Of a stretch of 59,236 bases of DNA, positions 14,001 through 46,700 are shown in pieces. The DNA is taken from assembly GCA_009869945.1 (NCBI GenBank), contig WIXG01000422.1:1-59236 (forward strand), read 5' to 3'. Every line of letters begins with the position of its first letter. Position 1 is the first letter of the stretch. The DNA comes from Mesaphorura yosii. Taxonomy: Eukaryota > Arthropoda > Collembola > Poduromorpha > Tullbergiidae. A program made the translations under genes and the position numbers. Under the pieces are notes generated by a model. It was not told the DNA's origin, did no database searches, and saw only the letters and a program-made list of their open reading frames with translations.

Positions 14001-14562
14001 CATATTCACGTGAAAATATCATTGATATGCGATCTGGCCCCAAGAGAATCAAGCATCGCGTATCGCGGGCGAGGAAAGCAATAAGCAGCCGCGCACGAGG
14101 TCAACCCGAGCGAAAATATTTGCTATTTGCGTATAGATGAGATGTGGAGAAGATGGGAAAGTGCGATAATTTCATTTTGTACATGCAAACGCGAGTGGCC
14201 ATAACATTTTTATGCGCTGCAAGTAATACGACTGTACTGTGAAATTTGATGGAAAAGTAAAAACCCACGCTCACTCGCAAATGAAGCGTCTGTGACCATG
14301 CGAGACATAAATATTTTGAGAGATCAGATCCGTCTCATCTCATCTCGAGCAAACGTCATACGTACACAGTAAATTGATTTATCGCATGCCTGCACTCGTC
14401 GCTGATACTCGCATTAAGCAAATCACATTTCCTGCCTGCACATAAAGTCGTGCACGAGGTCATAAATTGGAATTGGGATGAAAGAGAAACTCAGGAATTG
14501 AATTGACGAGTTGAGATACAGCAATTAAATCTGACGTTCGCTCTCTTTTCTTTTTCTTTCAG

Positions 14563-17500
14563 AATTTCAAGACTCGAATAACCCTCCTGTTCGTCACACT
14601 GAGCCTGCTTCAGTGCGTCCCTCCTTCGGAGAGCTTCTTCCTCCCGCGATTCATGCGCAGGCAAGCCACGTCGCCCCCGCAACAACAGAAACTGAACCCT
14701 GCGTCGTCGAGGGGGCAGCACGGAGAAGCGACGCAGCAGCAGCAAGCCGCCTTCCGAGCAATTAACAATAACCCGGCCCCTCCACGCCCCCTCTCAAACT
14801 TCGGGTTCAGGCAGCAGGGAGACTCGTCGAGTAGCAACAGCAACGGCAACAATCAAAACAACTTTCAGGTGCCCGATGCTCTCTGCCTGGCCTGCGAGAA
14901 GTTTCCCTGGACCCCGGTGCAGAGCTCCGCGCCCTCGGTGGGTACCCCGAGCGTCATCGTGATTGGCGGAGGAGGGAGCGAAAATAACATTGATGAGCCG
15001 GCAAAGCCTGTAGTGGCCTCGTCTGAGTCCAAACCACAGCACTACGAAGTACAGATTCACAAAGACCGAGGCATTGGGGCGGACGGGACGACCGTAGTTA
15101 TCAACGACCTGGGCACCAACCCACTGTCTGGGGACGCGACTCAACAGCAAAACACGTTTGTTACGCCGACGGGAAGTTCGTACGGCGGCCCTTCTCCACA
15201 GGCCTACAACGGACCGAGACAGCAAACTTTATTGCAGCCGGTACCCCAGAGCCAGAACTCGGCCCAGCAGTACGGGCAACCAAACCAGGTCCAATTCGGC
15301 GGCCAAAATCAGTACGGATCGGTGGTACAGCCAACACCGACAATTCTGCAGCCGAACCCCAACTCTATAAATCAGTATGCGCCACCTCAACCATTCAAAA
15401 CGTACTCCAAAATTCCTCTCATGAATGTGGGCACGATAATTGCCGCGTCGCACAACGCCAAGCCGCACGACATTCAGCCTGGGAAGCTTGTTTACCAGGA
15501 GCATATGCAGATTTACGGGGCTCCGACCCAGCAGTCTCCTAACTACGGCCAACCACCACCGAAACCTCAAGGTCAATACACTCCTCAGCAGAATTTCCCA
15601 CAGAGCTACAAGCTCCCGATCGTCAGCAACAGGCCCAACACGGGAAGCATTTCCATGAACCACATCCCGCTTGAGAATGTTCCAAACTACGTCCCAATCA
15701 AGCCTCAAGGCCATGGGAACTATGGCGCACCTCCTCCACAGCAGGGACCGCAAATGCCAACAGGGTTCATGCAACCACCAGGCCCACCGCCGGGTTACAA
15801 TCCACCGCAGCAAGGATACGCTCCGGCACAATCGGGATACTTGCCCCCACCACCACCTCAGCATGGGTATCGCCAGCCTCGGCCGCTTCCACCGGCACCG
15901 CCACAGCAGCAGCAGTACAGGCAGTCACAGCCAGTGCCACCACCGCCTCCGCCACAACAAAGCTATCAGCCTCAGGCACCGAGGCCACAGCAAAACTATG
16001 GAAACTTTGCACCTCTGCCACCACCACAACCACCACAACCACCGCAGCAGCAGGGCTACAACCAGTTCCCGGTACAACAGGCCGCACAACCCTCGCAGCA
16101 ATTCTTCAACCAGCAGCCGCAGGACAAACCAGCCGCACCTCCACCGCCTTCGTCCGTTCCACGGCCGACGCCACCAAACAACCTGTACGGAACGCCATTC
16201 AACCCGCCCATGCCGCAGCTGGAAATGAGGCCACCACCAGAGCACTACTTCACGCCTGAAATCAAAATGATGCCTCCACTGCCACCGGAGCCGTCGCCAC
16301 CACCAGGATACCAGAGCCCGTCGCTGGAGCCGGACAACAGTTTTAACCCAACAGTCGACATCAGAATCCCAACGCAAAGCGTGCCCGTACCGCAATCCGA
16401 AGTGACGCCGCTCTCAGGGCCAAACGCCGAGTATAGCCTTCAGTCGGTTACAAACCAAGTCGTCTTCCGAGACCAGTTCGACAAGAGGCCTTCCCTCTTC
16501 CCGTCTCCGCCGACAATTCCTTTTGGTCGCCCGTCCGAGGGGACAAAGCATGGGTCGGAGTTTGTCAAGAACCCGCATCTGCAGAGTCTCGATCAAGTAC
16601 GCGGACGAGAAAAGCCTGTTCAGCCAGATGCTACCCAACAACCATCGCCTTCTCCTCAGTCCCTGCCTGCGTCAGGAGGCGGTCGCTGGGAAATCGTGCC
16701 CGCCACGCAGTACGACATCACGCACCTCTTCAACAAGAACAAAGGAAAGTCCGTCGACCAGCAGCAGACGCGCAAGCGACCACTGCCAATTCCCGTGCCG
16801 GTTCCAATCTCAGAATCGCACGTGGCCAATTCGCAGAATCCTGTCTTTGTCGTAGGTCCACACCGTCCGGGGGCGGGTCAGCCGGAAGATCAGCGGCAGG
16901 AGGGCCAAGGCAACACTGGCATTCGGTATCAACCCGTGCAGCTTGAGACTACGATTTACACGACAACAGGACCAGCTCCGAATCAGAATGGTCAATCACA
17001 GCAGCAGCAGCAACAACAATACGGCGGTCACCAAGCACAATTCGACCCGCTTCCGCCTGCAGTGGTTCGCGCTCTGTACAACTCGCAAAGGACCTCGTTT
17101 TTGACCCATCAGCATTTGACTCCGGAACAGAACAGAGACCACAACAGTCCCATTTTCGTCAACAGCGTGACGGTCTCCGAGTCCCCGCCAGAGGAGACGA
17201 GAAGCTCGGCGAGCCATGTCGATCCGAGCAAGTTGGCCTCCGTGCAGCAAATCATCGATTCGCCGGTGCGTTACGGGCACGGCCATGGCCACAGCCACAA
17301 CGCACAAGGTCAACACATTGACCAAGATCAGACGGTTGTAAACTGCCAAAACAGTCCGCAGTGGGTGATCCCGAACGCTGCTGGCAGACAGCCAGCATAC
17401 GTTAGACAGCCAATTACGGAGTCCAACGCACAGCAGCAGCAACTTGAACAGCAGCCAAGTAAGCCATATGTGTACTATTACCCATCACCAATGTCATCAG

Positions 17501-20066
17501 TGTACTGGGTCGAGAAACCAGCATCAGGTGCATCCAACCAACAGCAACACCAGCAGCAGCAGCCGAGCCAGCAGGATTACGGGCATCGCGTGCCTGTGAC
17601 GACCATTATCCAGCCGCAGTACGGGTCCGAGTTGGAAGCCAATGAAGCGGCTCAGCAAACAAAGCCATCGTACGTAAAGTTGTCGACGGTTGTTTCATCC
17701 TCTTCGGAAGGCGAGAACAACGTGGACAACAATTCGATTGCGGCGGATGCAGCGGGCTACGAGAATTACTCGAGCCAGCGCCAGCCGAGTCAGGAGCGGA
17801 GCAAGGAGCAGAGTGGGAGCGAGAAGAATGGGCATGGCAATGGCAAACAGGTGGTAGAGGACGACGAGTCAGACGAGTCGTCTTCAATTATCCAACAAGT
17901 GTCCACTCAGGCTCCGTATGACATTCTGGCATTCGCGAAGGAACCCGTCTACGGTTCACAAAGCATAGGTGAGGGAAACACGAATGGCTGGAATTCTGAC
18001 GCTGAGGAATTTGAGTTCGAAACTTTTCATGCTTTCAAAGTAGCAATAAATTTGGTCTCACGTTTTTTGCCACAGAACTTTTTCCCAGACATCTTTTGCC
18101 ACAGAACTTTTTCCCAGACGTCTTTTGCCACAGAACTTTTTCCCAGACGTCTTTTGCCACAATCGTTCTTACACAATGACCGAATTCCATAATATACTTT
18201 TTGCCACAAGTGTCGGGCACTCACTTTATCATTTTCCAAAGAATACATAAAAAATTATATGAACTTGATAATACTTAACATTCATAGACAAAACGCGTAG
18301 ACAATCAGTCATGCTGGGCATCCTTTTTGAGGGTTTAACAATCAAAATACCTCCATATGTGCACTTAATTTAAGAATTGTGGGAAAAGGATTATGGCAAT
18401 GAGACATTGTGGCAAGAAGTATTTTTGAGGGGAAAAATTGTGGTGAAGTGTATTGAGGAAAAAGGTATTCTGGAAAACGACGGTAGACGATAAATTTTAC
18501 ACGGAACCGTATGATGAATCGGGAGCCTGCTGTGCCTTAATTAACTATGCCTAAACTTTGCCCTGCGTATTTTCAGACGACGTGGTCGACGCAGATGGTT
18601 ACGAACAAAGTTCGACGGGCTCAGTCACGTCGGAGTACACCTCGACGCCCGAGTACGGCGACGACGACGAGGCCAGCTCGAGGACGGAGGTGCGACCAAG
18701 CATTTCGTACAACAGCTTCTCGTCGCATCTGGCCCCGAAGCAGCAGCAGGAGCAGAGCAGCACGATGTCCCCGTTCTACTTCATTCACAACCATCGGCAG
18801 GTGCAAAATTCGGATAAAATGAAGACGCCAAAGTATGTTGCTGGAGATGACAACTCTTACCGCGTGGTTTACGATACCAAAGTGGGAGCGCAGAGCCACA
18901 ATTACGAAGTTGTAGGACCAACCACTCTTGCAGAGTGTTTTACGACTCCGGAACCAACAACAGTCATTACGACGACAGACACCGCAGCCTCCACAGATGT
19001 TTATGCAGCAGGAACGTCGACCACTGGATCCGTTGATGATTACACAAATTACGACATCATTAGCACGACTTTCAGCCCGTACCGCGTCAACACACAAAAC
19101 AGAATTCGACTGCACTCAAGTACGTTACATCTTCCTCTTGACTCTTGAGTAAAGTATTTCAATCTTGAGATGCGTCTTTGCCTGATTACTGTCGACGTTA
19201 AGGAGCTAATAAATGTTCAAACGTCAAAAGTTGAACCCGATTAGAAGTGCCAACCGCTGGCGCTGGCCTTTACCCGCTAGCTAGAAAGAAGTAGAAGAAA
19301 TGCTTTGTAGTCGCGGTGTTTTTCCGCCGCTGTTGCTGCTTTACTGATGACTTGTTGTGTAGCAGGTTCGCGATTCCCATCGGGACGCCCATCACCGACC
19401 ACTCCAGTTCCCCTGTCAGAAACAACTGCGTTGGATCATGACACGAGCCCAGGCTCCGCGTCTGTACACGTACCAATTTATCGACCGGCCGTAACATTTC
19501 AAGGAGAATCGCTCCTGGCCTCCTCGACGGAGCGCTCAGAGTCCATCGCTGACGGAAAGGACGAGCAGCCACCGAGCCCACCATTCAATCGGATTTCCAG
19601 CACATCCAGAAAAGTGCCGGCCTTCACTCCTTCAAAACGAATTCCAAACCAAGTCGAGCGCGAGCGCGAGCGCGAGCGTGAGCCGATCATAGTTGAGTCA
19701 GTTCCAGTGCTCAGCGCTCAAGGCTCAGACCAGCAAGCTCACAACGCGTTGAGTTCGAGTGGTTCCACGTCCACAACCACTCCGTCGAGTTCATCGAATA
19801 TGACTACCAAGATTGTAAAGACTGTTCGTGTGCGGCAGCGAATGCGAGCGGGAAGCCCGTTTGGAGGCTCCGGAGTGTTTCGGACAAGACTGGCAGCAGC
19901 AACAGGTCAAGGAATGCCTTCCAGAATCAAAGTCGTTCAGCGACCTGCGTCTCAAGACTACGTGAAAACCTTCCCCGAGTATGCGGCGCCGGAAGGAGAC
20001 ATGCTGCCCGACGAGGAACAGACGGAAGTCAAGAACGCTCTCATTGAAATCAAGAAAGTTAAATAG
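14563..20066 (+). CDS. large Pro/Gln-rich disordered secreted protein, 5' exon missing
   Basis: Three exons are supported: 14563-17968, 18577-19119 and 19366-20066, joined by GT-AG introns that all split codons in phase 1. Together they give about 1,549 residues ending in TAG. The first exon opens at a strong acceptor (pyrimidine tract then cag) and in frame encodes a basic N-region, a Leu/Val/Thr-rich core and a Pro/Ser cleavage region, so a signal peptide starts here or in an upstream exon. The body is low complexity. It is rich in Pro, Gln, Tyr, Gly and Ser, with poly-Pro and poly-Gln runs, YGAPPPQQ-like segments, a His/Gly patch and an Arg-Glu repeat. Cysteine is rare, with one C-x2-C pair near 14,884. 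No catalytic domain is visible. Composition resembles structural extracellular proteins (cuticle, chorion or mucin type), but I do not recognise the family. It converges on TBC1D19. Confidence 0.85.
18065..18161 (+). repeat. 29-bp minisatellite in an intron
   Basis: Three full tandem copies plus a partial fourth of a 29-bp unit beginning TTTTGCCACAG start at 18065, 18094, 18123 and 18152 with almost no divergence. A further isolated copy of the first ten bases lies near 18197. It begins about 95 bp after the donor at 17968/17969. The period is not a multiple of three, but the exon frame happens to stay open through it if the intron is retained. Confidence 0.9.
19656..19681 (+). repeat. GAGCGC hexamer repeat in coding exon
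   Basis: Tandem GAGCGC hexamers encode an alternating Arg-Glu run in the last exon of the Pro/Gln-rich gene. Hexamer length keeps the frame, so copy number may vary between alleles. Confidence 0.85.
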
Positions 20067-20282: not shown

Positions 20283-20724
20283 TATGAGGAAGAGCACACG
20301 GTTTAACTGTTTGGCTTTAACTAGATCTTAAGAAAGCACATTTTTAACTTTATTGTTAACATATTTTAGTGTTTGCATGAACTTGTTTTTATTGATGTAC
20401 TGAATAATAGATTTATTAGCCCACGCTCACAGCCGCTGAACAAATTAAAGTGCACGCACGGTAGCAATTTGAATGAATTTTGAAGCTATATTTTTGTTTG
20501 GCAAAGTTTCTCTTGTTCATATTTTGCCATAATTCATGATGTGCTTACGTCTGCCTATTTTGCATACATTCTTTTGCGTACACTTTAATATTAAATGCAT
20601 TTTAGCTGATTGACATCACCAAACAAAGCAGTAATCAGTAATCAGTACTCAAGTGTTTCTTAGTAATTTGTTTGTATCAAAGGAAATAAATCGGATATTT
20701 AAATTGAAATGCGAGCGCTGTGAT

Positions 20725-20730
20725 TTTATT
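20725..20730 (-). terminator. AATAAA polyadenylation signal for TBC1D19
   Basis: TTTATT on the plus strand (AATAAA on the minus strand), about 310 bp past the TBC1D19 stop codon. Confidence 0.4.
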
Positions 20731-21040
20731 CGAGTTTTGGCGTCGGTTTCGAAGTTGTGAATCGGTGCGTTAATTCTACTGATTTAAGTATCGGGGGAAA
20801 ATAATAAATTACAGGACACAAACAAATACGCGATTACAATATGCGCATTACATTTACGCGTACGTGAAGAAACTAGAAATTGGCTAATTGGACTGGAAAA
20901 TGGGCCAATATCAATTGCGCGGTTCGATACAAATAACACGGTTCGGTAGACCTGACCTTCCTCCAGCGTGATGCAGCGGCAGTAGCATGGAAAGAATTCC
21001 ACAACAATAGGCCACATAAATCAGTTCGTATGAACCAAAT

Positions 21041-24000
21041 TTAGAAAGTCTCTTTGTAGAGCACCAACTGCAAGACGGGGAGCACGGCGACTGATGACAA
21101 GTCTGCGAGCACGGCCTGAAACCAAATACGGGCATTAGAGCAGCGTATACAAACTGTATAAATCATTCTGATTAGGGCACACGGAACCGAGTCAGGCCAG
21201 GCGGCGAGTGACTTGAATATACATTAGAGAATTGTGCGGCTCACTCGGGCTGGCTCCGCGAACGCTTTGGAGTACGTAAAAATACAAAACTTTCGCTTTA
21301 GCTTCTGAAGAAGGCAAGAAACTATCGGTAATTGCGAATAGAAAAGAGTGTGCCAGAATTACACAAGTACCACGCCATTATCGGCTTGTCAATGTCTCTG
21401 CGAATGGCGAATTGGTGTCCAAATGTGGTCTGCACAAGGCAACGGCAAAATCGTTCAAAGAAGCTTATGCGAGAGTGAAACAAGAGGGTGATATATTTAC
21501 TTGCGCTAGCTAACCAGTAAATATGTGTACAATCGAAGAGTGTCGCCATGCTCCGCTCTGCAGTTTTCTCTTGCAAAGCCTTAGCCTGGTCCAACTTTCG
21601 CCTGGCCAAATTTTTCCTTGTTCATGTCCACAACGACTTTCACAGTTGATCGTGAAATGTAGTCGAAAGAGTTAACAAGGCAGTAAATAAATTTGCAAAT
21701 CCGGAAGGATCGCGGACATTTTTATATTTACAAGCTTGCAACCTGCTAACGCTAATATTACAACTTATTTTAGACAACAAGACGAGAAAATTCCCTCCAC
21801 TAAATTGACATGGAACACATTGCTAATTTACACGAGGTTAAAAAAAAGAATGGATGAATTCGTTTTGAAATACACACGGTTTTTGCAACGTGACACGAAT
21901 TTCCTGGAATCAGTAAATTCAATTGTCAGAAACATAACAAAGGCTTGTTACTTGTAAACTTTGTAATTCACTTAAACTTGAGAAAAAGTATGAGCACTAA
22001 ACTTGGAGTGAATGCGATTCGACAAAATCTCCTTAACATGGCACATGGTCTGAAACAAAGGACTCACAAGATTTGAAAGCTTTTCCCGGAAACTTTACTT
22101 TAAATGTCGCATCCGGTTTTAAAGACGATTTAAAATGTACAACCTTGGTGAAGGCGTTGGCCAAAGGGCGCTGCTGAAGTTCACACTTGTATGAGCTACA
22201 TTCACGTGGAAGCAAGGACAGAAGAAGTATTTGAGGGTACTTCCTCTTTAGTAAATGGTTGATGCCTTTCATTAATCTATGAAAGAAAGCTACTCACATC
22301 GACTGTTTGTGGCTGTTGTGCTCGAATCAGATTTTCCTTTCGTATGCTCAGGATTCCCAGAGCGAAGAAAGAGAGCAATTGTATGGAGTTGTAGCCCAGA
22401 ATTAAATCCCACAGTTGAAGTACTTGCTCGGCGGGTAAGTATCCGCTGAATCCTTTCATCAGCCATTTGAAGACCACGCGGAGACTGAAGAAGGAAGGAA
22501 TTAAGCATTTAGTACTATTGGCGGGTAAACAATATGCAAGAGCTATGCTGGCAAGACGATGAGCAATTAGCCAAAAAATTAAGCAAAAGCGAACTCATTC
22601 ATTCAAGCAAGTTCTAAAATTAAATTCACTGGAGGAATTCTTTTGTTGAACCACCCGAGTGACCGAACTGTTACACGTTTCAACAGGAAATATTTTAACT
22701 TATTTAAGAGGTTTCTTCCTTCTCATATTCTCATTTAAATAATTAAACGAATTACGATTGAGCTGGAATGCAAGCGCGTGGGAGTAAGAGTAAACAATCT
22801 CCGGTGTCGGGCTGCAACTTAGCATATGAGGTAATATTTAGTGGTAGTAATATTTCATACTTTTGTCGTAGTGGGACGCAAATCGCATTTGAATTTAAAT
22901 TCCAGGAAAGGAACTGTTGTGCGTTTAAATGCAGCACAGTGAGCAAAAAGAAAAATTTAGAAAATGCCGTAGCAATTTTCCCACAGAGAATCTGCTGTAA
23001 ATGCAGTTCTCAGGTCGAATGAAAGAGGATAGTCCGGATAAGGAACTAGCCGCATTATTAAAGCATGAAGAAAGCACAGCTGAAGATGAAATAAACCAGC
23101 CCAATTGTAGCTTCTAGACTTCGACTTTTCTCAAAACTTTCCACTGCTTTACTGTAAGCGTCTGCATTGGCTGCTGATGCTTGTGCTTGTGCTCATACAA
23201 TTCGGTCGTATTTTTCTTTTATTTTCTCAAGAGAATAAAATATCGCTCTGCTCTTCAGTTTGTACATCTTTTTCCACTGCGCTTGACGAAAGAGGGTATG
23301 GCAGGAATGGATGACATCGCAGCACTTTGCCATTACGCAACAGCAACACGCAACGCAACAACTCTCAAATAAGCAGAATATAAGCTGAAGATTTTCTCTC
23401 TTTTAAAGTTATATTGAGATTGCTTCTTCTTTTCTTCGTCCGCCGTCTCTTCGTCAAGTGCTCTTTAGCGTGGAATGCGAGGAGCTTTCGCAATAAAAAA
23501 GAAATTGTGTCTGTCTGCAAATTTTGTTTGGTCTCCGAAGGAAATTATCACGCCGGCCGGGCCGGACTCAAGTTCCCTGATTTTCTGCGATTGCTTTAAT
23601 GTAAGGTTTAGTCGACTGCAAAAACGCATGACACGGACTCTGCTCTGAATGAAATTAGAAAATCGTACACGTCACTCGTAGACGTTGACTTTGGTCAGGA
23701 ACACGGACACGGATAGATTCAATTTGAATGCAAAGTTGGTAGTCAGAGTCAGAGACGACGTAGTTGGTTGTAAAAGCACGCTTAAATTTAAATTAAGGAG
23801 TAGACATCAATGCATTGTAGATTCGTGGCTGTGGCAGGAAGCTGACGCGGCGGCGTCCGATGAGCCTTGAGGTCCCAGTGCAATCTGGCCTGAATTTGCA
23901 AATGTGGGCTTGAGTACAAATTGAAAGTCAATATTATTCATGTGCTCGTGCTCATCTAAATATGAAAGACGCTATGAATATAAATAACAATATTCAAAAT

Positions 24001-27000
24001 AGAGAAAGCCACACTTTTGTTTGTGGTTTCCAGATTGAGATTAAATGATGTTACCGTAACTGACGTCTGTGAGCTGAGCCGCAGCGAAGCACATTTTTAT
24101 TTAGTGGCTAAACAGAGAGCTTCGACTTCGACCAATTCTTTCGCCAGATAAATGGAAATTGTTATTAGTAATAGAAATCACGAGCGAGGTTGCTGTCGCT
24201 GCCTGCCACTACCGCCAAGATAAAGTGAGTTCGAGCAAAGTGCAATGCACGGAAAGAAAAGCGAAGCTGCGCACGCGTACACGCTAATTATTTCCTTGCT
24301 CAAATGTGCGAAAACGAAAGGCGAAAACGGAGAAGCGAACTAGTAGAAAAAAGAACATACGGCGAGATTCTGAGTCCACGAAAATGGAACCAAAGTTGTG
24401 TTTCGTGTCGATGCAAAAGTTTCTCAAAGAGAATACAAAGAGCTACGATTCCATTCTCGTGCGAAGAAATTTCATGAAGTCGGTACCAGTAGCGAGTGTA
24501 CATACTTTTGAATGTAAAGTACAGACTCTCGGGTTCATCGAACAGATAACAGATCGGAGCAACTGCGAGCAGAGAGAAGAAATTGGCGATGAGAGGTGGA
24601 TGGAAAGTTGGACGGGAGTGGGGATCATTATTATGTGGGGCCTCAACTCTCAAATGTAATTATGCCCGACAATTGCGGAGTGCATTCATTCCCAAATCAG
24701 CGCCGTTCGGTGCAGTAAAATCTTCAAAGAATTGCGACAGCTTCCTTCATTTCCAATTGATGCACTGCGGGCAGAGTGCAAACTGCAAAATAACTGAGAA
24801 TTTCACTGCATTTTACGTATTCATAAAGTACATCGCACTTTCTTCCTTTTCTTTTTTGACCCGGTAATTGTGTCTCAAAACGTCGCAGTTACTTAGAAAG
24901 CTTCAAGACCTCGAGTTTCTTCATTCAAGTGTAACCGACAACGAACTTTTATCAATCGAACTGGAAGCGAGAAAAGATCCTTCCAGAAGTATTCATTTAA
25001 ATGAAAAAGTTGAGATTTGTTCGCCATTCTAATTATATTCCTTTCGCTTGTTAGCAGTTTGCTCCCTCGCCCACCAGGGCATTCACTTCAATTCACTGCT
25101 GACGCGGAAAATATGGTGTGCAAAATTTGATTTTATGCCTTGCTTATTGCTTGCAGAATTCTTAGCCAGCATCATATCTGTGGGCTCACGCAGTATTTCC
25201 TTACCGTACATGGTGAATCCGTGGAAGGGAATGATCCCATTTGGAGGGTAAATGACGGATCCCTCAGTCAGCCTGCCTTTGTTTCTCTTGATGCTGGCTG
25301 TGAGCGGATTTTTGCTGCTCCTCTCAAACAGGTCAAGAAGAGACACGTCTCTGCTGAAGCACAGCAGCACTTTGTACAACGAGTCCTCAAACACAAAGTA
25401 CTGGTCATCATTCGCCGCTGTGAGCTGGACGTCCTGTAAACATAAAAACACGCTGCATTCGGCAATAATCATAACAAAAGCTTAGAAATTGACTGATAAA
25501 AATGCTGCGCCTTTCCCACAAGCGTGGCGAGCATTCCTGAAGTCGAACGAAAGTCAGCCATAAATTTCGGTTATGGAACCGCCGTTTCGCCTCAAACTTT
25601 CCTTCTCCTATGTTTGCCCTGTGTCCTAATTTTTTCGCTGGCAGCGAGGAAATGAGAAACATAATTTTGTCCTTTCTATGCGGAGCACATTTAATGGCTG
25701 TCAATTGCGATCACAGGCTGGCTTATTCATGTGTAAGTTGAGAAGGTTGAAACTGGGTTCAATATTCGCTGAACCGGATTCTGCCGTTACATATTTTAAT
25801 ATAAATTGGGTTCGCTGTGGTTCGCCACCGCGTAAAATAGGCCTTGAGTCGTTGCACGACGTTGCGTGATACAAAATAAAAGTAATCCATGTCGAACGTT
25901 CACACATTAAGCACGAATGCTCTGCAAGCATTCGATCTACGTACTGTGAATCTCCACACAACTAGTTTAATGGTTCGGCACGTCCCACTAAATCTCCTTG
26001 CTCTAAATCCTAAAACCCGAGCTACAGCGTAGCCCGTAACCACGGTGAACAAAGAAAGATTTAACCTAGATCAAAATCCTCAGTTTGGCATTCGAATTCG
26101 AATTAAAAATTGACGTAAATGTATTGTGCGAAATGTGCAGCTCAATTCTACATATCACAACTGTCGTCATCCTCGAGTGGATGCTGATTTTGATGTGTTG
26201 ATGTTCAATAACCTTGTTGGTGCGTACGTTTCACTTCACTCTCATGTGATATTTATATCTCCCCTGAATTATCAGGTCCATATCGCATTGGCATCGGCAC
26301 TCGAAACTTTTCCAATTAAAAAAAAACATTTTCAAAATGCCCACGAAATTGTCAAATTCAGGCAACAAACAGCAAATTGAGGCAAGTGTTTTCTCATGAG
26401 ATACTGCTTGCATACCAGACAGAAAACTTGTGAACGCTGAATTCGGATGGACAGCTCACGGAGTGTAAAATGAATAAAGTTTGCAATGTGTTTACAAAAA
26501 AACAGAAGCCATGCCATTTAACAGCAAGAAATCTTGAAATGTGAATGATTCGGTTGCAATTTCGACCAAAGTTTATTGCCACACGTGGAGTGCCTTGCCC
26601 GCACAATTGAATTTGAAATTCCGGCGTCGTTGAGAAAGCGAGCGCGATTTTATGGGGCAAGAAACTTGAAAGTGCCCGTCCGCGTTGCACTCGTATTTGG
26701 AACGCAGGTGTCGGTGCTGTGCATGACAAAACGGACAAGGCAAAGCATGACTGGCATGCATGATTGATAGCACAATGAAGCTATTTAATTCGATTTCACG
26801 CATGGATCCGTATATAAAGACTGCTCGGGCTGGAAAAGATACGGGATTATTGTTTCCTGGAATCTCGCTTGCGCACGATTACGATTACATTTCAGAAGTA
26901 CAAATTCGTGAATCTAAAGGTAAATCAACTTCTAGCAAAATATTTACAGAAAACACTTACGTATGAAGCATTCTCAAATATTTGCAGATGTCCCGCAACA

Positions 27001-30000
27001 TTTTCTTTCTGCTCGCCTTTCTGGCGTTTTTGGGCTTGGTCGCAGGTCGAGTTGACGCTCGTGACGTGAACGAGCCGACCAGCGACGAGGTAACCATTAC
27101 AAAATTTAGAGACACACGGGGCAAATGATTCCATGCTCTCAATTTAAAAGTGTCTTCCATTGAACGCTGATTGTGAATGGGACGACTCTCTTGGAGTTTG
27201 CTGCACTGGACACTGCGAACAAACGCGATTCGACATGCCCGGATACTGCGCTGTTCCTCGTCATTCGTAAGTTCGGACACCGTTTTCGCTGGTTCAATTG
27301 AGATTGATAAAGATCCAAGTCGATTTCTTCCCATAATTACTATTCACGTGGCGTGTTTATTTTTGCCATATATTTTGTCTTAATTTTCTCCTGAAATATT
27401 CCGTTCGTGAAATAAATCTATTGCATTCAAACCTTCCACCGCTTATTTCATTGCGAATGTTCGAAGTTGTAAATCTGTGCATCACGTAATAAACGTAAGC
27501 CATACACAGCACATGCCTTACGTATGGCCTGTATTTGATTTTATAGCGCAGTAATGTCTGATCTCGGCCATGAGTCAGATTAAAGTATGCAATAAAGAAA
27601 GAAATATTAGTCAATTCTAAATAGGAAATGGGTTCAAGAATGCACGTCCTTTTCTCGAGAATGCGACCAGCCGTAACGCGCCTGGTGACAAAATGTGCTG
27701 TAAAAGGAATGCACTTCTTCAAGAATCTTACTGTTGGCGACCCCTCAGTGGAGCATTTTTCGGAGGATGGCAAAAGCGAAGAGGTAAATTGCATTGCCGA
27801 AGATTGCATTGACAGTCCTTCCAAATATGGAATTATATAAACTAATACATATATAGACGGAAATAATTCGACTAAAAATGATCTGCACGCAATAACGCTT
27901 GACAACGCCCTCGGCGGAAACGCGGTTGACGGTTCATCTCAGCCCAAACCAGCATATCCTGGAATCATTGAACCGTTTCCCAGGAGCCAAGAGCCAATGC
28001 GTTAGTTAACGTGATATTACCTTCAAGATTAGTCGGTCTACCAGCAGATCCGATTTTACCACAGCCTGCTTCAGCGTTTGATAATAGTCTCGATGCTGTG
28101 AAACAAAAGCAAGAATTTTGGGTTATGAGGGTACATAATTTTGTCGAGGCAAATCAAACGTTGGTTGGTAGAATACATGAATGTGAAAGAGATTATCATT
28201 TACTCTCAGCTGTATATGCAGGATGTTCGTTCATGGACATTAAACGCACGTCGTGAATCGTGAACCTGATTTGTCCCAAGAGTCATTCAATTGTATCAGT
28301 TGGAATTGTTATGTAAATTATTATAGGCTTGTTGTTGGCCTTTGACATTTGCACTGAAACAAACTGTATTTCAGAATACTGATGTTCGAGCATAGAAAAA
28401 TGGCAAGTTGGAAAAAAAGAAAACGCTTTTGATTTTGAGCTAAAAATAAGAAGTTGTATGAACTGCTATTCTTGGATAAGAATAGTGAAAGAGAAAAGAA
28501 TCAAAGAATGGAAACGCTTCAAGTGTGAGTGTATCTAAACACAGTACAGCCTATCCACACACTTTCATGGTTAATTGAGTGCGTTTAATTGCAAATGGAG
28601 TTGACGAAGCGTGGCCAAGCCAAGCGGATTGCAGAGCGTACCTCCTGCGTTATATTTGATCCCAGCACTTGCTGCCACAGTCTGCCTCGAAGCGCCGGAG
28701 GACAGCCTTTCTTTAGAAATTCTTGAGCGACGACGGCGGATCCTCGCGCATCCACTGAAATCGAACAAAAGAAGAGGTAAGCGTCAGGAAGAAGTATTGA
28801 TTCGCCACTAGTAATTGAAACGGGATAAATATCTAACGAGAAGGAGGAATAATAAACCAAGAAACTGAAACTGAAATGCATTGCGATAAAATTCCTTTCG
28901 ACGTCCCGCTTATTTCAATGCCGTGACTTGCGGGTCCAGAGAAAGCCTGAAGAAAGAGATTATTGCGAGTTCTTTTCAACTTAAGTACAGCACAGCAGAA
29001 AGCATGAACAATAAGCAAGCAGGCTACATTCGCACTGCACTCTACAGAAACTAAAGCCGAAGTCGACGCCTAAGTAAGTTTTCCATACAATCGATTTCAA
29101 GTACAATTCTCACAAAGCCAGTTTTTCCAACTTCAACTTTACTTTGATACTTGTATCTGTATCTATCTTTGTGTCTCTGCTGTGTTATTTGTTGCTGTCT
29201 TTCGGTAATGGAAATGTAATAAATGTAATGTCGTTGGAGAAAGCATCACTGTTGCGACTGTTGCTTGTCATTTCGTAGGATTTGCCGGAGTTTACTTGTA
29301 TCTTTGTCTCACGAGTCACAAGTCAAGTCAGTCGCCCATTCCATGTGACAAATTAGAACATGACTCTAGTTATCAGTTCTGTCATCGTTGTCGTCTGTCT
29401 CGTCTTTCTCAAGCCATACCGGGACGAGCGCGCGCATAAAGACGCACAAGCACCAAGATTGCAAAACTTACCCGCCTCTCCCAGTCTACATCTTTGATGC
29501 TGAATTACTTTCGGAAGCCCAGTGCTCAAGTAACTGCCATAAAACTCTGCACGCGAATCCAGATGCCTGATTAGTCCGTAGTGCGGTTCGCCGGTTGTTA
29601 AATCTCCGAATAGACACTTCTGCAAGAAAGGAAACCAAAGCTATATATCACATAAATGGCTTTTAGCCTACATTCAGGCTGTGCCGTGTGCTTTCGAAAA
29701 GGCACCAGAAATAGGCAAGTGAGATTTATCCTTGCAATACATGACAACGTCGTTGTCCTATACGGTTTTCGTTGCCCGCAGGTAATTTGAATTAATGCGA
29801 ATTTATTTGACTATTCCGCGTCGCGAAGTATGAAAATACTGGAACACATTTCCTTCTGTCTGCGAATGAGACAGTCGCAGTCGCAGAATTAACCACTCTG
29901 GGGCCGTGATTTTCGTCCATCTTCATCAGGCTTACCTTTACTTGCTCATTGGACGGCTACAATTTCTAGTTTGTGCATTACAGCCCATATCTAGACGTAG

Positions 30001-33000
30001 GCATACGCTATGATGGCTATACTATGATTTGACGCCCACACTGCAGCGCTCGTCAATGCATTATTTTTGTCTGCCGCAGAGTGTACGGTTTTTCATTCAA
30101 AGTTGCTGCACTTTCCTAAGTCACAGACGCATTCATTCATTAAGGATTTAATCAGTGTATCATTATCCGTACAGGAAAGAGCTGCAGTAAACCCGCATCA
30201 TCTCTTCTCATGAAATTGTTTCATTGATGATGATGATGAATAACCCCGGTCCCTCGGACACTATTTATCGAGTCTTATGAATGAATGAATGGATCGCCAT
30301 GGCATGCGAGCGGGTGCGAGTGAAATTATTGATCCGAACTTGAACCAAGAGTGCATGCATCAGCAGAAGGAATACACGAGTTGCATGTCCTCGGATGAGA
30401 CTAATTGGCTTGGCTTTGAAATATTGCAATTGGTGTAGTGTTCTCCAACACATAATGGCAATAATGAGCATTCTACACCGGGAAACACGAGTTATGCGCG
30501 TGTTTTGTGACGCGAAATCTGTTTCCGTGTTACATTTTTGGACGATTTTGAACTCATTGTCGTCAGAAAATAATGGGTAAGCAGATAAACTTGATCACAC
30601 CAGAAAGCAAAATACGAGAAAAAGCAGACTCACCAGCTCGCGTAATGTCTTCACCTTGAGTGGAACATTTGCCAATGAACCCCAGCATTTCTCAACTCTG
30701 TAACATTTCATCAAACGTGCAAAATTCCTATTAACTGTATAATGCCCATCCAATCAAAGTGTTGTCTAATTTTCAAGCTAAATTTGTAGTACCCTTTGTA
30801 ATTTGGACTCGCAATGTGTAGTAGACAATCCAGAAAATCTTTCGGCGAGTAAACAGGCTTGAACTTTGACAAATCTGGAATTACAAACGAGAAGAAAGCA
30901 TTAATTTATAAATTTATAACCAATACGCACGGTAATTGCTTATATCTTATTTTAAGGCTGCTTTTTATGGTTCAACTGCCTGAAGACTGTCTGCGATTTG
31001 TTGTCTCGTCTCATACAGACGAACGTGAAGTTCAAAATTCCTCTTAAAGAGTATCTTAATACATTCCGTTAAAGTCAAATTTAAATCCGCTGCATGAGCC
31101 CAGACAAATTATTTTGCATAATCATGCGATTATTATACCAGACAGCACGGGACGATGCGAAGCGGACAAAAGTAAGAAAGCGTTCATGCAAAAATGCAGA
31201 ACTCTCCTGCAGTCGTCTGAAGATTTCATGGAACACTGCATCATGGACCGACTCCGAATATAAAGAGGAACAGAAACTGGCCCGAGCGTAGCCTAGAAAC
31301 CTGTGTTCCATTTGCCTGCCTTGTTTTGCCAAATAGGTACAATCGGCCTTGACTTGGCTGACCTTAATGCGCTATAATTTCATTTGTAGGTGCACCTGCA
31401 CTCATTCAATTATCGAAAATTGCATTTCTACGGAATTGAAGCCATCGTTTCGTTTGAACGATGTTGTATCTATCTAATGAGGTCTGGGTAAGGTTTCATT
31501 TCAGGCTTCATACTTTTCTTATTTCATTGAAACTTACAACATTCACCTTATCTTGCGTTACGTTAAACAAAGAGGAAGATCCCCAAACTGTGAAGAATTA
31601 TGGCTGCCTCGCTTAACAAAGACAAGTCTATAATTCATAGCCAGAAAGTTTGTAACCGAGCAATTCCATGTACAATTGCTGAAGAGTCTCACGCCTTACC
31701 AACGTCCCACTGACTCAATTCCGACCAGTTCTCTTCGACCGCTTCCTGTTCAGACACGAGTCGGCCACACGCCAGTGGTGTCTTCAGTTCGTGTGCCATT
31801 GTGGTAAGGGATTTCCAGATTCTGCTTTCCCAAGTTTCCTGAGAAGCGAATCACGTCGCAAATTAGTAATCGATCACGAGGCACGTGCAGTGGTAATATT
31901 TACTAATGTTCTTAATCAATATTTCTTCATTATATTGCCAGGCAGGAAATAATGAGCAAATTATTCATGAGAAGGAAGCACCAGCGAGCGGATGCTTGCG
32001 AGAATTAGGCGGGATGACGTTCATCACATTATACGTCAATTTCTATGGACATTTCTGACTTAACGAGCCACACCACGCCAAAAAGAAACTGGAAAAGAAA
32101 GTATTTCATAATTTCACATGCTCTCATGTAACAGAATCCGGAGAGATTATGCCTGCACTGCCAAACAAACCATCCGTCCCCTTGCTGACTTTATTCTTTT
32201 CTTTCAGCGGCTGCTTTGCCGGTGCCAAAGTTCTTGGCCTCACATTGTGAATTGAAGAAGTAAAAGTTACATAATATATCTCATTATCTCACTCGCGACT
32301 TGCAGTGAATAGGATTAAAGAATATCTTGAGATATCCCGAGTGGGAACCTGGGGCGCCGAATAAATTAATTATCAACTTTGCCGACGGACGCATTTTTCA
32401 ACGATTAAGTGTGTGGGTTGGCAGGAATTCGTCCAAATTCGAGGCAAAATTACGAGAACCGTGACAATGGCATTGCAAACTGTTAACGCGAATTAGCAAT
32501 GCAAATATGTGAACCATAGCCGAATGCGTACTCTTCGTTAATGATGTAATGAACATAGCGAATAAAATATAATTCTCATTTCAATAGTGTAAAAGTGTAA
32601 TGGAAATGAGATTCAGTATTTTAGTAGACATTCGCTATGAAAGTCTTCCTACCGCGCCGCCAGCTGCCTTGCATTGAAGTTGCATAATTTATTAAAGCCA
32701 AAGAGCAGTCGCGTCGTTACGAAAGACAAGCAAAGAGGAAGGGCTTACTTGGGCTTTCTTCATGTAATCCAGCGGCTCGGCGTACGCTGGCTTAAAGCCT
32801 ATACATCTTTCACGAAGCCAGTGATAGACCATGTTTCTCAATTTGACGTTTAAAAATCCTGTCTTCACTGATTTCAACAGCGTGCTCTGGAAATCCTTTG
32901 CGCTGACTTCTTCCGAGGCCGTGACTTTCTACTCGAACAACAGAGTATTTTAAAGAAATGGAATGATACGAGCACGCCTCCATAATTTATTTCTGTGCTC

Positions 33001-33312
33001 TTTCGCTAAACCAAAGCGTAATTAAATTAAACCAATATTGACTGGAGCCACCAAACCGAAACCGAGTGCATACAAACATGAGAATGTGCGTGGCACTTGT
33101 CAGAATGAAACTTTTACATTTAGCAGTAAAAAGGAAAAATGCAGAGACGAAACGTGAATTATAGATGACAAAATCTACTGGAGACTAAAAAGTTTAAAAA
33201 TAACCTGAAGTTCATAGAAGAAGGACGAATACTCCAACATGTCCTTTATCTCGGTCGAGATTCTTGCTGCCAACAGATGCTGATTTACTTCTTTTGTAGT
33301 TCCTCCATCCAT
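21041..33312 (-). CDS. TBC1D19: TBC1 domain family member 19 homologue, 12 exons
   Basis: Exons in transcription order: 33205-33312, 32749-32928, 31700-31838, 30793-30874, 30634-30697, 29472-29619, 28642-28754, 28021-28095, 25205-25433, 24361-24562, 22298-22484 and 21041-21115. All introns are GT-AG and all phases agree, giving 533 residues (human TBC1D19 is about 526). Recognisable segments are the N-terminal LDYMKKAQ, KPVYSPKDFLD and ANVPLKVKTL; the TBC opening GCPPALRGRLW (around residues 255-265); YPPNGIIPFHGFTMY; the helix around LLWD-like QLWDLILGYNS; and the C-terminal AVLADLSS. The start is the first ATG after an in-frame stop. I see neither the IxxDxxR arginine finger nor the YxQ glutamine finger of active Rab-GAPs, so catalysis is doubtful; I believe the vertebrate protein is the same. 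Intron 8 hosts a nested gene on the opposite strand. Confidence 0.93.
26811..26819 (+). promoter_or_regulatory. TATA box of nested cystine-knot gene
   Basis: TATATAAAG on the plus strand inside TBC1D19 intron 8. Transcription would begin about 30 bp downstream, near 26,840. From there to the donor at 26,919 there is no ATG, so the initiator at 26,988 would be the first start codon of the spliced message. Confidence 0.55.
26840..26919 (+). other. 5' UTR exon of nested cystine-knot gene
   Basis: Predicted untranslated leader from the expected start site (5' end approximate) to a good donor (AAAG|GTAAAT). It is followed by a 68-bp intron (26920-26987) ending in TTTGCAG directly before the ATG. 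No ATG occurs in the leader. Confidence 0.5.
26988..27270 (+). CDS. secreted inhibitor-cystine-knot-like peptide precursor
   Basis: Two coding exons, 26988-27089 and 27151-27270, are joined in phase 0 across a 61-bp intron, giving 73 residues. Residues 1-24 form a textbook signal peptide (MSRN, a Phe/Leu/Ala core, then small residues). A short acidic linker follows. Exon 2 starts on the first cysteine and has the spacing C-x6-C-x8-CC-x3-C-x10-C (residues 35, 42, 51, 52, 56, 67), the classic knottin order. This fold occurs in arthropod neuropeptide-like, antimicrobial, channel-modulating and venom peptides. The sequence alone does not say which, and I recognise no named family. The stop TAA (27268-27270) overlaps a strong splice donor (C|GTAAGT at 27267), so a longer spliced form is possible. 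An AATAAA lies 141 bp downstream. The gene is nested antisense within TBC1D19. Confidence 0.72.
27411..27416 (+). terminator. AATAAA polyadenylation signal, nested gene
   Basis: First AATAAA downstream of the 27270 stop. It supports a short transcript that ends before the possible downstream exons. Confidence 0.45.
27671..28005 (+). CDS. possible alternative 3' exons of the nested peptide gene
   Basis: If the donor at 27267 is used, a phase-2 acceptor at 27670/27671 (pyrimidine-rich, accag) opens an exon to 27783 (GAG|GTAAAT). A 73-bp intron with an ideal ACTAAT branch-like motif leads to exon 27857-28005 with a natural TAG stop. All phases agree and the precursor would be about 159 residues, adding three more cysteines, a KRR basic site and a hydrophilic tail. 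A rival acceptor at 27624/27625 instead gives a short tail with two more cysteines and a stop at 27674-27676. The extension ends 15 bp before the antisense TBC1D19 exon 8. Neither form can be settled without transcripts. Confidence 0.35.
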
Positions 33313-36073
33313 TCTTTTAGTTTCCTGTTTCAACCACAACGCTAAAAAGAATTCTTACGTGTATCTCGTTCAAAACTGAAGAAAAGGATTAAAAGTGAGT
33401 GAGTTTTATTGCTTGTTTTTACTACTTGGCAAATAAAAATCTGCGGTTTTGTCCTTGCAAAACTAAACACTTCTTTACTCATCAACTTCTTCGTTAACTT
33501 ATTTATGGCAAAATAAAATTAGACCATGTCTACATTTAGTTCGCCTTACAGAGCATTCTTTGAATGGCCGAACTCCACATAATGAAAGACTCAGCCGTTC
33601 GCCCTTATGACCAAGTTTCATTATTGACAAAACAAATAAGTCGATGCAAAATCCTTGATATTAGACCGCAGCAAACAAGGAGAAACCATGTTCGTTATTT
33701 ACGGCATGAGACGATGAAAGTGGCATACAACCGAAGGCAAAGCTTTGGAAATGTTATGCTCGTTTCAATTTATAGATGCGAACTGCATTTATTATGATCT
33801 TCGGCTTCGCTGCTAATAAATTCTAATAGAATCCGAAATCTGGATATTCGTACAACTGAAAGACGTCAATTCCTAAACCAAGTTCGCGTGCACCAAAGAA
33901 TCCAGACAGTTGGGCGTTCCGAAAGATGTCTGCCAGTCGCTGGTGGCGTAGAAAAGGAGCCACATGGATTTTACTTGCGCCTGAATTCGGCTATCTTCTG
34001 ATGGAGAAAGCGTTGACGCAATTAGCGAAGCCAATCGCCAGGCAGAACCGATGATTGACGCAAATCGACGCGATACTTCCTAAAATACAGGTAAGACTCT
34101 GACGCCCAAAGGGCGGGTCGGCAGGCCAGTCAGCATCTGGATTTCTTAATGGAAGGCATTAGTTTTATGAGAAAATGAGGATTTCACGACTTTCGACGAG
34201 TCTGCCCCTCTTTACTTTCTTTCTTCTCTGACGCCTTCCGCGCTTTCGCCTTGGCCAAAGTGCAGTCGTACCTGTGATTTAATTGCTTTCACTTGTGCCT
34301 GAGATCTGCCTTCATTCGTCATAAAATGTGTCAAAAGATTTATTGACTTGCGTACATGGGTTTTGATAGCCGGAGGGCGAATGGCGGCGCTCCCGCCATA
34401 AAATTTAGAACACTAAGATCCACATTTCCACAATTGAAACTTCAACAATAAAGACGAAGAACTTGATAGTTAACCTGTCGCTTGATGCTCGTCTTGTTAA
34501 TTTATTGGAACATCCAAGATCAATGTCATAGTTCTGCGGGCAGTTGTTCAGCTTACTTGTTACGTACAGAATTGAACAACGCATTTTGTTTGTTGCACAA
34601 AGTTTCCATAAAAACAACCGACTTATTTGGTGATCCATTCCACTCCGGGTCATGTTCGCTTCTGAATTATTCTCTTCTTCTTGGACAAAGAGTAGAGGAG
34701 AGGGATAATTTTCATAACTTTGTGACTCTCTCGCGAAATGAGAAAGCACTTTCCCGCATATTTTTACCGGCATTGCGCTAATAAACAACAAATAAAAGGA
34801 AAAGTATGAGAGAAGCATATTAAATCCATACTTCAACAAACTGACAAAAAATTCAAGTTTAAGTTTGAGTATGCATAACAAAACTTTCGTCCAAACTTTG
34901 TCCATTCCGCCATTGCTATTCCGTCGTTCCTTACAAATGCAATATCGTCGAGCAAAGGGCTGACGTTCTCGGAATTTTTCCGGGTGTTTGTAATGAAAAA
35001 ATGCGCATCTTCGAAGAAATTTGTTTGTTATGCAAGCGACAGCTTCTTCTTCAGCCTCAGCATCGTCGTTGATCCGTCATTCGCTCTTGTTCCTTTCAGC
35101 TCCTGACTTTATTCTTGCACAACGTACACGTTGATAAAAGGAAGTGAAAATTGAGACGTGGATTCTCTTGCTTTGTCGCACGGGTTCGGAAGGCCATTCT
35201 GGCGCTACTGTTGCTCATCATTTTACTGGGTCTCTTCCGCTTTTAAATCTTCTATCTCCAGTTGTAGGATTTCGTAAAGACACCCGTCCGTTCGGAGGCT
35301 GGCCGCTTGTTATTTCTTATCAGCTCTCTTGCGAAACAACGAGTGCATACATGAAGCAGCAACAGAAGACGGCTGGGTTACGATTCGCCGACTGTGACAT
35401 TGAATGAAGTAGTTGAGTTGGTTGACCACTCGCATTGCATTACATTCGCATTGAAAAATTTTAATTTCTTTCGTGTTCGATTTAAGTAAGTGGAAACGAT
35501 AAACAGACGAAGGCGCTTTTTACGAGTCGTGTCTTCCAGTTGCATGCGCGTATTTGTGAATGAATTTCCAAGTCGTTTCCATAAAATGGATTTACTTTTT
35601 GTTCTCTTCAAGGACGCATATTTATGTGCTCTAAATGCTACAAATGGCATAATGGAGTCTTCAGAGATAAAATCACCAGAGCGATGCAGCATGCAGCAGC
35701 AAAAAAGAGAAAGGGCGCCGCAAAACGAAAAATTCGGCGACAAAACGAGACATTTAATTTCACAAGTCCTCAAATACTGGGCAGGCACATAGAAGCAAAA
35801 GTAATGGAGAGAATTGAAGTCAGCCACCGGAAAGAAAAATTTCTTTTGTATCGCATTCTTTGCAGTGCATTCGTCTTTTTCGCTTTCCTTCATAAACTTC
35901 CATCTGCGCATTAACTCACTCCGGCCTGCAATTTATGATGTATTAACACCACGCCAGGAATAAAGCATGCAGTGGAAGGGAGAACGCTTAGTTGTTTATA
36001 CAGCATAGCAGCAGTTAGAAGAATGATAAGCGAGTTGGTGACTTCTGACTTGCGGGTTGCTCCTTCTGTGACT
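33313..36073. other. intergenic or 5' flank of TBC1D19, nothing recognised
   Basis: Upstream flank of TBC1D19 (minus strand). Open frames of 166-177 codons exist on the minus strand near 34.4-34.9 and 35.4-35.9 kb. They lack recognisable domains, and several ORFs of that length are expected by chance in a window this size. Confidence 0.5.
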
Positions 36074-43633: not shown

Positions 43634-43708
43634 ATGACGTACTCCAATTACCACAATGAAGGAATCAAGACAACTTTCTTTTCTGCCGAGTTCAAATACC
43701 CACAATGA
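43634..43708 (+). promoter_or_regulatory. upstream ORF overlapping the receptor start
   Basis: An ATG 22 bp before the receptor ATG opens a 24-codon frame in the +1 register. It ends at TGA 43706-43708, inside the receptor coding sequence. If both ATGs are in the mature leader, ribosomes using the first one would bypass the receptor start, a common way to lower translation. Confidence 0.45.
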
Positions 43709-46700
43709 CTTGATGAGAGAACCCGCCACCTTAGGTTTCAAGCAGGGCGGTGAACACGACCACACGACCTACGCCACCACCGCCCACACGCCCTCGTCGA
43801 CGTCCCTCTGGAACTCCGATAATTACGGCGGTAGTGGTCATGGCACGACAGATTTTGCACCGCGCCTTGGTGAAAGTAGCAGCATCCGGGCATTCAACGA
43901 CTCTGTGTACAACTATATGACCTCATTCCTGGTAGGAGTCAACGTCGCGGAGCAGAATGACCGACTCTACGGGCACTCCACTGGAAGAGCGGGCCTCTTC
44001 CTGTCCAATAGCAGCACTTCGGCGGCTTTTGTCGCCAACACAACATCGCACTTTAGTTCCTCTGTCGCTCAGGACATGAGCTCGTCGTCCGAGTCCTCTT
44101 CGGTGAGTCGTGCTGCCGTAATTCCCACCGCCACTAATGAACCTGCCGGAGTCTCAGCTGAATTCCCTGGAAAAAACATCATAATTCCGCTCTACACTCT
44201 CATCTTCTTTCTCTCCTTCGTCGGAAATCTCCTCGTCATACTCACGCTCGCGAGGAATCGAAGAATGCGAACAGTCACAAACGTCTTTCTCCTCAATCTC
44301 GTAAGTTCATTCATAAAAATTAATTTGCAGTTCTCAATTGGAGTTCCAAGTCTCAGATTCTTCGAAGACGATCGGGCCCACTCGAGATAATCAAAGAGTT
44401 TCTAAAATAAACGAATCGCCTGGTAACGTTTCAATCACTTCTATTTCTATCTAAAATCCCTTTTGTCATCACATTCTGTTCAATCAAGCACAAAGTAAAT
44501 TCGCAAGTCGCACTTCGCGTTTCGCACTACTGCAGTTGACAAAAATTCAATTACGCAGTCATTCGACAGGATTGGAATACATAAATACATTGAATTTCGT
44601 ATCCTATTGCGTCATTCTCAGAATCACGCCTTAACCAACTGCATTATTTTGTTTGTTGTGTGGCCTGAGTGGATTTCAAAGGTGTGAGCCTGACAAATCA
44701 TGGGACTTGTTAGCATTATGTGAATGAAGTGCCTGGTTGCACTCGGCACTGTGAGAAGTGTTGTAATGTCCCACAAACGAGCCCAAGAGGAAATGGAAAG
44801 GAAGGAAGTCTGAGGCGAGGCGACTGGAGGAGCCGTGGTAATTGAGCCACGTGCGACTTGCGAGCGCAGCGTCATTTTGTGAGTGAAGTGACATGGCTGT
44901 GGAAAGGAAAGGCAGGCAGACATCTTGATAATTGACTCTGTGCAACATAGCATAAACGGTCTCATAATGCTCAATTCTGTGTCCTCTGCCCATGATATTG
45001 CTTTGACAAGTTGACATTTTAATATAAATATTAAATAGCATAGTCGACTGTCTGCTGAGATTCGAGACACATGTCAAACACACGACTGGGCGCACTGCGA
45101 GAGTAGTAACTCATGAGCCCGCTTCTATTTTTCGGCAAACTCGCTCGCGATTGCCACAATGAAGGAAAATATTTATGACGTACAAAGCGAGATGCGAGAT
45201 CAAAATTTGCTCATGTGAAATACAGCATGTGGAAGGAAAGGGCTGAGTAATTGTTTCAGTTGGACCTTTCTTATTCCGGTTCTTGGAAACGATTATTGTG
45301 GCAATTTCTTTGAATAAATTGGACCTTTGCAGCCTGAGCATCTCGCCGTGCCCCAACGCAGGAAGAAAGTTGCTGCTCCTTTCACAATCAAGTTGGAAAC
45401 CCCTCGTGAGCCATAAAGAATAAATCTTGACTTTGATACAAACTACAGACTACTAGAGCTCACGGCCATTAGAGCTTTGTTGCTGCTGTGCTGCAATAAC
45501 AAAACAGGGACGCGAACTCAGATTCGAATTTCTTCGAAGGAATCGAAGCCACTGAATCAGAATAATCGCAAATACTAGCAGATTTTTCGTGAATCCACTA
45601 ACGATGTTCTGTAGAATGCAAAATTTGACACTGGGCCCGTTGGCCTACTAAGTTGAAAGGAGAAACCTTTCTTTAATTCACTGCTCTGCTGCTTTTTGCC
45701 ATTGCATGTAAAGTTCTTAGCAAATGCCTTCATTTGTAGGCAGTGCATATTGAAGTCAGGACACTCTGTATGAATGGTCGCAAATAAGTAATTTTATTAG
45801 AGCATTCTTCCCGGAATAGTTTGACCAAACTTAAGGCAAAGCCCTAGGGAAAGTTGCTTCGACAAAGAATGTCAGTTCAAATATTGTCAGTCATTCATTC
45901 ATTGGCGAATGTAAGTTTCACAAATGCATGCACCTGCAGCGGAGCAGTCCGTATCATGGCTGCGATTGCGAAATATCATGGACAAAGGAATTTGAATTGA
46001 AACACGTTCGCTAATATAGAAGGAATTCGAACAAACGAATAAATTTCCTATGGTTTCCTGCAGAACGGAGTTGTAGCTGGAATTGATCAATACTCCAAAT
46101 CGTGTTATTCGCTTCGCTTGTTGTTTGGGTCCGAGCCTAAAATTTGATTCAAAAGTTTCCCTTTGGCCCAGTTTCCAATTTCTCCCGAGTGACGATCACA
46201 GAAAAAGGTCGCTGCTTCCGCACAGTTGGTTGATAATCTTGAATTCTATTACAGGCAATTGCGGACCTACTTCTCGGAGTTTTCTGTATGCCGGTGACCC
46301 TCATTGGACAGCTGTTGCGACATTTCATATTTGGAGAATTCATGTGCAAAATTATTCCATATTTTCAGGGTAAGCTAAAGAGCGTTAGTTGCCAACCTCG
46401 AAACGTGACTACAAAATACTGAAACGTGCTTACGCATTACGTCGTCGTGTGAAAAATAATTAACTTGAAAGCACATGTGCTGCGTTTTATGTGCTTAGAG
46501 GCAGGAAGAGGGCATTAAAAAGAAAGACCGACTCGTGCATTGTCACATTTAGCGTGGAGACTAGCTCGTTAGCTCCTTTCTTCCTTCAGGTGATTATGGT
46601 TTTCAGGAGAAATTGGCAGGTGGAGTTGACCATGAAAAGTAGGACCATGACGCGCAAACTTAGTATCATTTTCAAGTATTTTTGTTGTCGAGGCAGACTT

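Follow-up and report, generated by a model that had tools for sequence, protein, structure and literature searches.

A putative Alo-type knottin gene on the opposite strand within a TBC1D19 intron of the springtail Mesaphorura yosii, and seemingly related knottin exons in apparent receptor kinases

Does an intron of the springtail gene TBC1D19 hold a complete gene of its own, and if so, what does it encode? The question arises from a stretch of Mesaphorura yosii DNA (assembly GCA_009869945.1, contig WIXG01000422.1, positions 1 to 59,236; these 59,236 nucleotides are called the window below), in which an initial annotation had proposed a small cystine-knot peptide gene on the strand opposite its host. 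The favoured explanation, to which a probability of roughly 0.6 may be given, is that a real and independently transcribed small gene lies nested antisense in a TBC1D19 intron and encodes a secreted knottin of the Alo type, with host defence as its likeliest role. The predicted gene has the following parts, with lengths in base pairs (bp).

26811..26819, + strand: TATA box (TATATAAAG), a nine-base word that is unique on the + strand of the window
26840..26919, + strand: 5' untranslated exon without an ATG, its start placed about 30 bp past the TATA box
26920..26987, + strand: intron A, 68 bp, in the 5' untranslated region, GT-AG (GTAAAT...TTGCAG); the start codon adjoins its 3' end
26988..27089, + strand: coding leader exon of 34 codons with ATG at 26988, a hydrophobic leader and a short acidic spacer, called from sequence, hydropathy and codon score
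27090..27150, + strand: intron B, 61 bp, phase 0, GT-AG (GTAACC...AAAAG)
27151..27270, + strand: knottin exon, opening with TGT (Cys1) and ending with six residues and a stop after Cys6; PF11410 match of 24.3 bits
27411..27416, + strand: AATAAA polyadenylation signal, with a second AATAAA at 27488

Direct reading finds the TATA box, the ATG-less leader, the 68- and 61-bp introns, the exon that begins at Cys1 and the AATAAA just as they had been described, and at the level of sequence the gene model is confirmed. No ATG occurs between the TATA box and the first donor, and the frame closes with a TAA at 27268-27270. The predicted product has 73 residues and the cysteine order C-x6-C-x8-CC-x3-C-x10-C. 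The acceptor of intron B has a weak pyrimidine tract; comparably short introns are found elsewhere in the genome, one of 59 bp in L021 (4071-4129) and one of 55 bp between the two knottin exons of L022 (4560-4614). With x7-9 allowed from Cys2 to Cys3, a strict form of the cysteine motif has one match in the window and none in 300 windows simulated with a first-order Markov model (17.8 Mb). A loose form likewise has one match in the window, but eight in the simulations. The leader reaches an 11-residue hydropathy maximum of 3.14, which marks it as a candidate secretion leader on hydropathy alone. Its exon also has a higher codon score than all 2366 stop-free intronic stretches compared; these stretches overlap, contain 39 codons each against 34 in the leader exon, and were scored with a training set of ten coding pieces.

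How would such a gene work? Its own promoter would start transcription at about 26840, the two introns would be spliced out and the leader would be cleaved off. By analogy to Alo-3, the six cysteines would pair as three disulfides, 1-4, 2-5 and 3-6. The resulting stable mini-protein would act outside the cell, most likely in host defence as an Alo-type peptide.

To which family does the peptide belong? The initial annotation recognised a knottin but no named family and suggested an undescribed peptide. The knottin character is supported by the cysteine spacing and the Pfam match; the idea of an undescribed peptide is not supported. The Pfam model PF11410 (Antifungal_pept, cut-off 22 bits) matches the spliced product with 22.1 bits and the knottin exon alone with 24.3 bits; a scan of the genome gives 22.4 bits, a thin margin over the cut-off. 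A search with the single 73-residue sequence returned no database match, and among PDB sequences the sole match at E up to 10 was ALO3 (E 0.09). A profile search with a limit of E 1 recovered 14 proteins, of which 13 lie between E 1.3e-15 and 2.0e-4 and 10 are annotated with PF11410 in the database. They include Alo-1 and Alo-2 of Acrocinus, an Alo-2-like protein of Leptopilina, an 'antimicrobial peptide 1-like' protein of Agrilus, and proteins of Callosobruchus and Beauveria. Since the eight-row profile contained Alo-3, this search is no independent proof of the family place of the peptide. In a study of springtails, 12 Alo peptides share the motif C-X6-C-X7-9-CC-X3-C-X10-C (PMC10051947), and the spacing in the window (x6, x8, CC, x3, x10) falls within it. 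An AlphaFold model of the peptide has a predicted local distance difference test (pLDDT) score of 86.8, and its top Foldseek match is ALO3. Members of the Alo family have been described before in beetles, wasps and springtails; the best reading of the sequence is that the peptide is a divergent, acidic member of it. That the gene is a real one of the Alo type appears very probable.

The whole predicted gene lies between two exons on the opposite strand.

25434..28020, - strand: TBC1D19 intron enclosing the peptide gene, with its donor at 28020 (AAG/GTAATA) and acceptor at 25434 (TTACAG/GACG) read from the sequence
28021..28116, - strand: exon of TBC1D19 that precedes the intron and matches human residues about 264-297 (tblastn, 53% identity, E 0.006); the limits are those of the match
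25206..25433, - strand: exon of TBC1D19 that follows the intron and matches human residues about 298-372 (tblastn 25445-25206, 61% identity, E 1e-24)

The tblastn query was an approximate version of human TBC1D19. It gave 11 rows, six of them at E <1e-5. On the - strand the matching pieces are collinear: one group spans 32844-28021 (residues 62-297), the other 25445-21056 (residues 294-522). The row for residues 183-252 includes a stop, and one row (E 0.62, - strand, within the peptide gene) was out of order and was dropped; the exon map does not cover human residues 1-61 or part of 188-233. The proposed identity of the host rests on this tblastn comparison. With the flanking - strand exons located in this way and both intron ends read, the antisense nesting in TBC1D19 is supported. 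Such a location is ordinary. Insects often have nested genes, and in D. melanogaster intronic genes make up about 6% of the gene complement (PMC3786989).

Is the peptide the only one of its kind in the genome? The PF11410 scan found 13 places at E up to 10 on five contigs, seven of them over the cut-off. Some of these knottins seem to serve as the extracellular part of apparent receptor tyrosine kinases. In a single open frame of 443 residues (L021:5002-6330, contig C634), a knottin that scores 27.4 bits is combined with a hydrophobic segment and with a tyrosine kinase domain that scores 201 bits and carries HSDLATRN and DFGL. At L022:4440-5930 (C280), two knottins and a hydrophobic segment are followed 44 bases on, in another frame, by a kinase frame (226.9 bits), and we infer that an intron joins the two frames. 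In L024 (C647), a knottin (25.4 bits) precedes kinase-like pieces that look broken, and no Pfam kinase was found in the scanned 161-residue piece.

Have these knottin exons and the nested gene a common origin? An acceptor AG stands immediately before the Cys1 codon in all six knottin domains that fit the loose pattern, the one in the window included; the pattern does not match L021:4777, the C647 domain (L024) or the second half of either double knottin (L021, L023). Those second halves lack Cys1, and the cysteine-rich domain at L021:4777 has no AG directly before its first cysteine and no Pfam match in frame. The L021 knottin K1 has the same plan as the gene in the window, with a leader exon, a phase-0 intron of 59 bp and a knottin exon that starts at Cys1; in the C508 copy (L023), the corresponding leader lacks a canonical donor. 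Identity between the peptide and the receptor knottins is 23-36%. The nested gene and the receptor knottins seem, from their exon boundaries, to share an exon module. The shared intron boundary before Cys1 supports their common descent, and it also makes a chance frame less likely. As a separate observation, the double knottin of L023:4751-5717 (C508), which resembles that of C634, lies directly before kelch repeats; both contigs have a nearby TBC-domain match, which suggests a duplicated block.

The kinases themselves form a large set. With a limit of E 1e-20, and with 132 of 308 candidates scored, at least 86 places match the C280 kinase; these are places rather than genes, and other tyrosine kinases may be included. 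The longest frame was viewed at 30 loci, and eight chosen frames were scanned with Pfam. All eight contain a kinase domain; four also contain a kelch propeller, one a subtilase domain, and three have no recognised ectodomain in frame. A hydrophobic segment lies between ectodomain and kinase in all five frames that have an ectodomain, and is weaker in the subtilase frame.

L034:223-2367, L035:193-2466, L038:160-2460 and L039:757-2451: kelch repeats, hydrophobic segment and tyrosine kinase in single open frames
L041:1-2463 (C789): one open frame with a subtilase domain of 98 bits and a tyrosine kinase domain of 256 bits

When a kinase frame from the genome was compared with the database, its best match was an Orchesella dallaii protein, with 39% identity over 71%. 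The N-terminal part of P0001 (Orchesella dallaii, 734 residues), a relative of these kinases, scores 14.9 bits for glycosyl hydrolase family 17, which is below the cut-off. A literature search of incomplete coverage found no description of receptor kinases with knottin, kelch or subtilase ectodomains.

Several observations weigh against a secreted defence peptide nested in TBC1D19. For the host, a genome-wide search for TBC domains found 29 places, none of them on the contig of the window, and the Pfam TBC model, scanned in two of the three - strand frames of 20501-35500, reaches only 18 bits in the window against a cut-off of 25.2; the TBC domain at this locus is spread across several exons. 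For the peptide, the core from Cys1 to Cys6 has one basic and six acidic residues and a net charge of -5, outside the range of 0 to +4 found in the cores of 11 homologues. This count covers neither the second Beauveria domain nor P0125, P0126, P0133 and P0134. A neutral-to-cationic core is typical of the homologues counted rather than defining for the family. Many knottins carry a cation-polar-cation clip that is thought to aid antimicrobial activity, according to PMC9865768; because the core has only one basic residue, such a clip is unlikely here, and the acidic surface makes direct killing in the style of the cationic Alo peptides uncertain. Could the gene simply be a decayed or chance frame that no longer works? 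The apparent decay of its relatives in C647, and perhaps C508, would fit, as would the unremarkable codon usage of the knottin exon, whose score is matched or exceeded by 8% of the 2366 intronic stretches. However, the splice sites, frame, cysteines, TATA box and polyadenylation signal are all intact and the strict motif is absent from the simulated DNA, and a non-working gene is very improbable. The defence role is given somewhat less than an even chance.

If the peptide is not made for defence, what might it do? One proposal is that it is a ligand or soluble decoy of the knottin-bearing receptor tyrosine kinases of the same genome, and was derived from their knottin exon or was its source. 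The joined knottin and kinase of L021:5002-6330 (27.4 and 201 bits), the knottin frame that precedes the kinase frame in L022 and the acceptor AG before Cys1 in six of six pattern-matched domains would agree with this, as would the core charges of five other knottins of the genome (0 to -8), which are non-cationic like that of the window. Yet a shared exon module indicates common descent, not binding, and the peptide is no more than 23-36% identical to those receptor knottins; the proposal is rather unlikely. A bolder version is that the nested gene is a soluble form of a receptor-ectodomain exon module, in an animal whose large set of receptor tyrosine kinases has exchanged ectodomains for those of knottin, kelch-propeller and subtilase type, and that the free acidic knottin serves as a ligand or decoy, perhaps in immunity, and not as a direct antimicrobial. 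This would be unlikely. That the peptide blocks ion channels or proteases as other knottins do, as an endogenous or secreted inhibitor, is more doubtful still.

On the favoured explanation of a secreted Alo-type knottin, the family would gain a divergent, acidic member encoded by a nested gene. This suggests that peptides of a family labelled antifungal need not be cationic. The receptor context is judged more important. Apparent receptor tyrosine kinases elsewhere in the genome carry what appears to be the same phase-0 knottin exon. This connects, in a way that can be tested, secreted knottins of the defence type with the evolution of receptors in an arthropod.

Elsewhere in the window, the open frames 43638-44390 (+ strand), 51548-52366 (+ strand) and 57530-58318 (- strand) resemble, by eye, parts of peptide-hormone G-protein-coupled receptors. 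The open frame 14515-18192 (+ strand, 1225 residues) is rich in Gln and Pro and has a hydrophobic start; its G+C content is 53-57%, against 39-48% in the adjoining 2-kb bins.

How does the predicted peptide compare with named ones? It resembles Alo-1, Alo-2 and Alo-3 of the beetle Acrocinus longimanus in the order and spacing of the six cysteines and in the PF11410 match, and 1q3j is the nearest solved structure. It differs from them in core charge (-5, against 0 to +2), and identity is 32-35%. The part before Cys1 is longer: it has 34 residues here, whereas the precursors P0122 and P0127-P0130 have 23-26. With the collembolan Alo peptides, compared by their published description, the cysteine motif C-X6-C-X7-9-CC-X3-C-X10-C is held in common; their two full models have 61-62 residues with a mature part of 34, whereas the product here has 73 (PMC10051947). 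LhKNOT is described with a cation-polar-cation clip (PMC9865768), in contrast to the single basic residue between Cys1 and Cys6 in the window. LhKNOT, the Alo-2-like protein of Leptopilina and the predicted peptide are nevertheless all PF11410 knottins with a leader.
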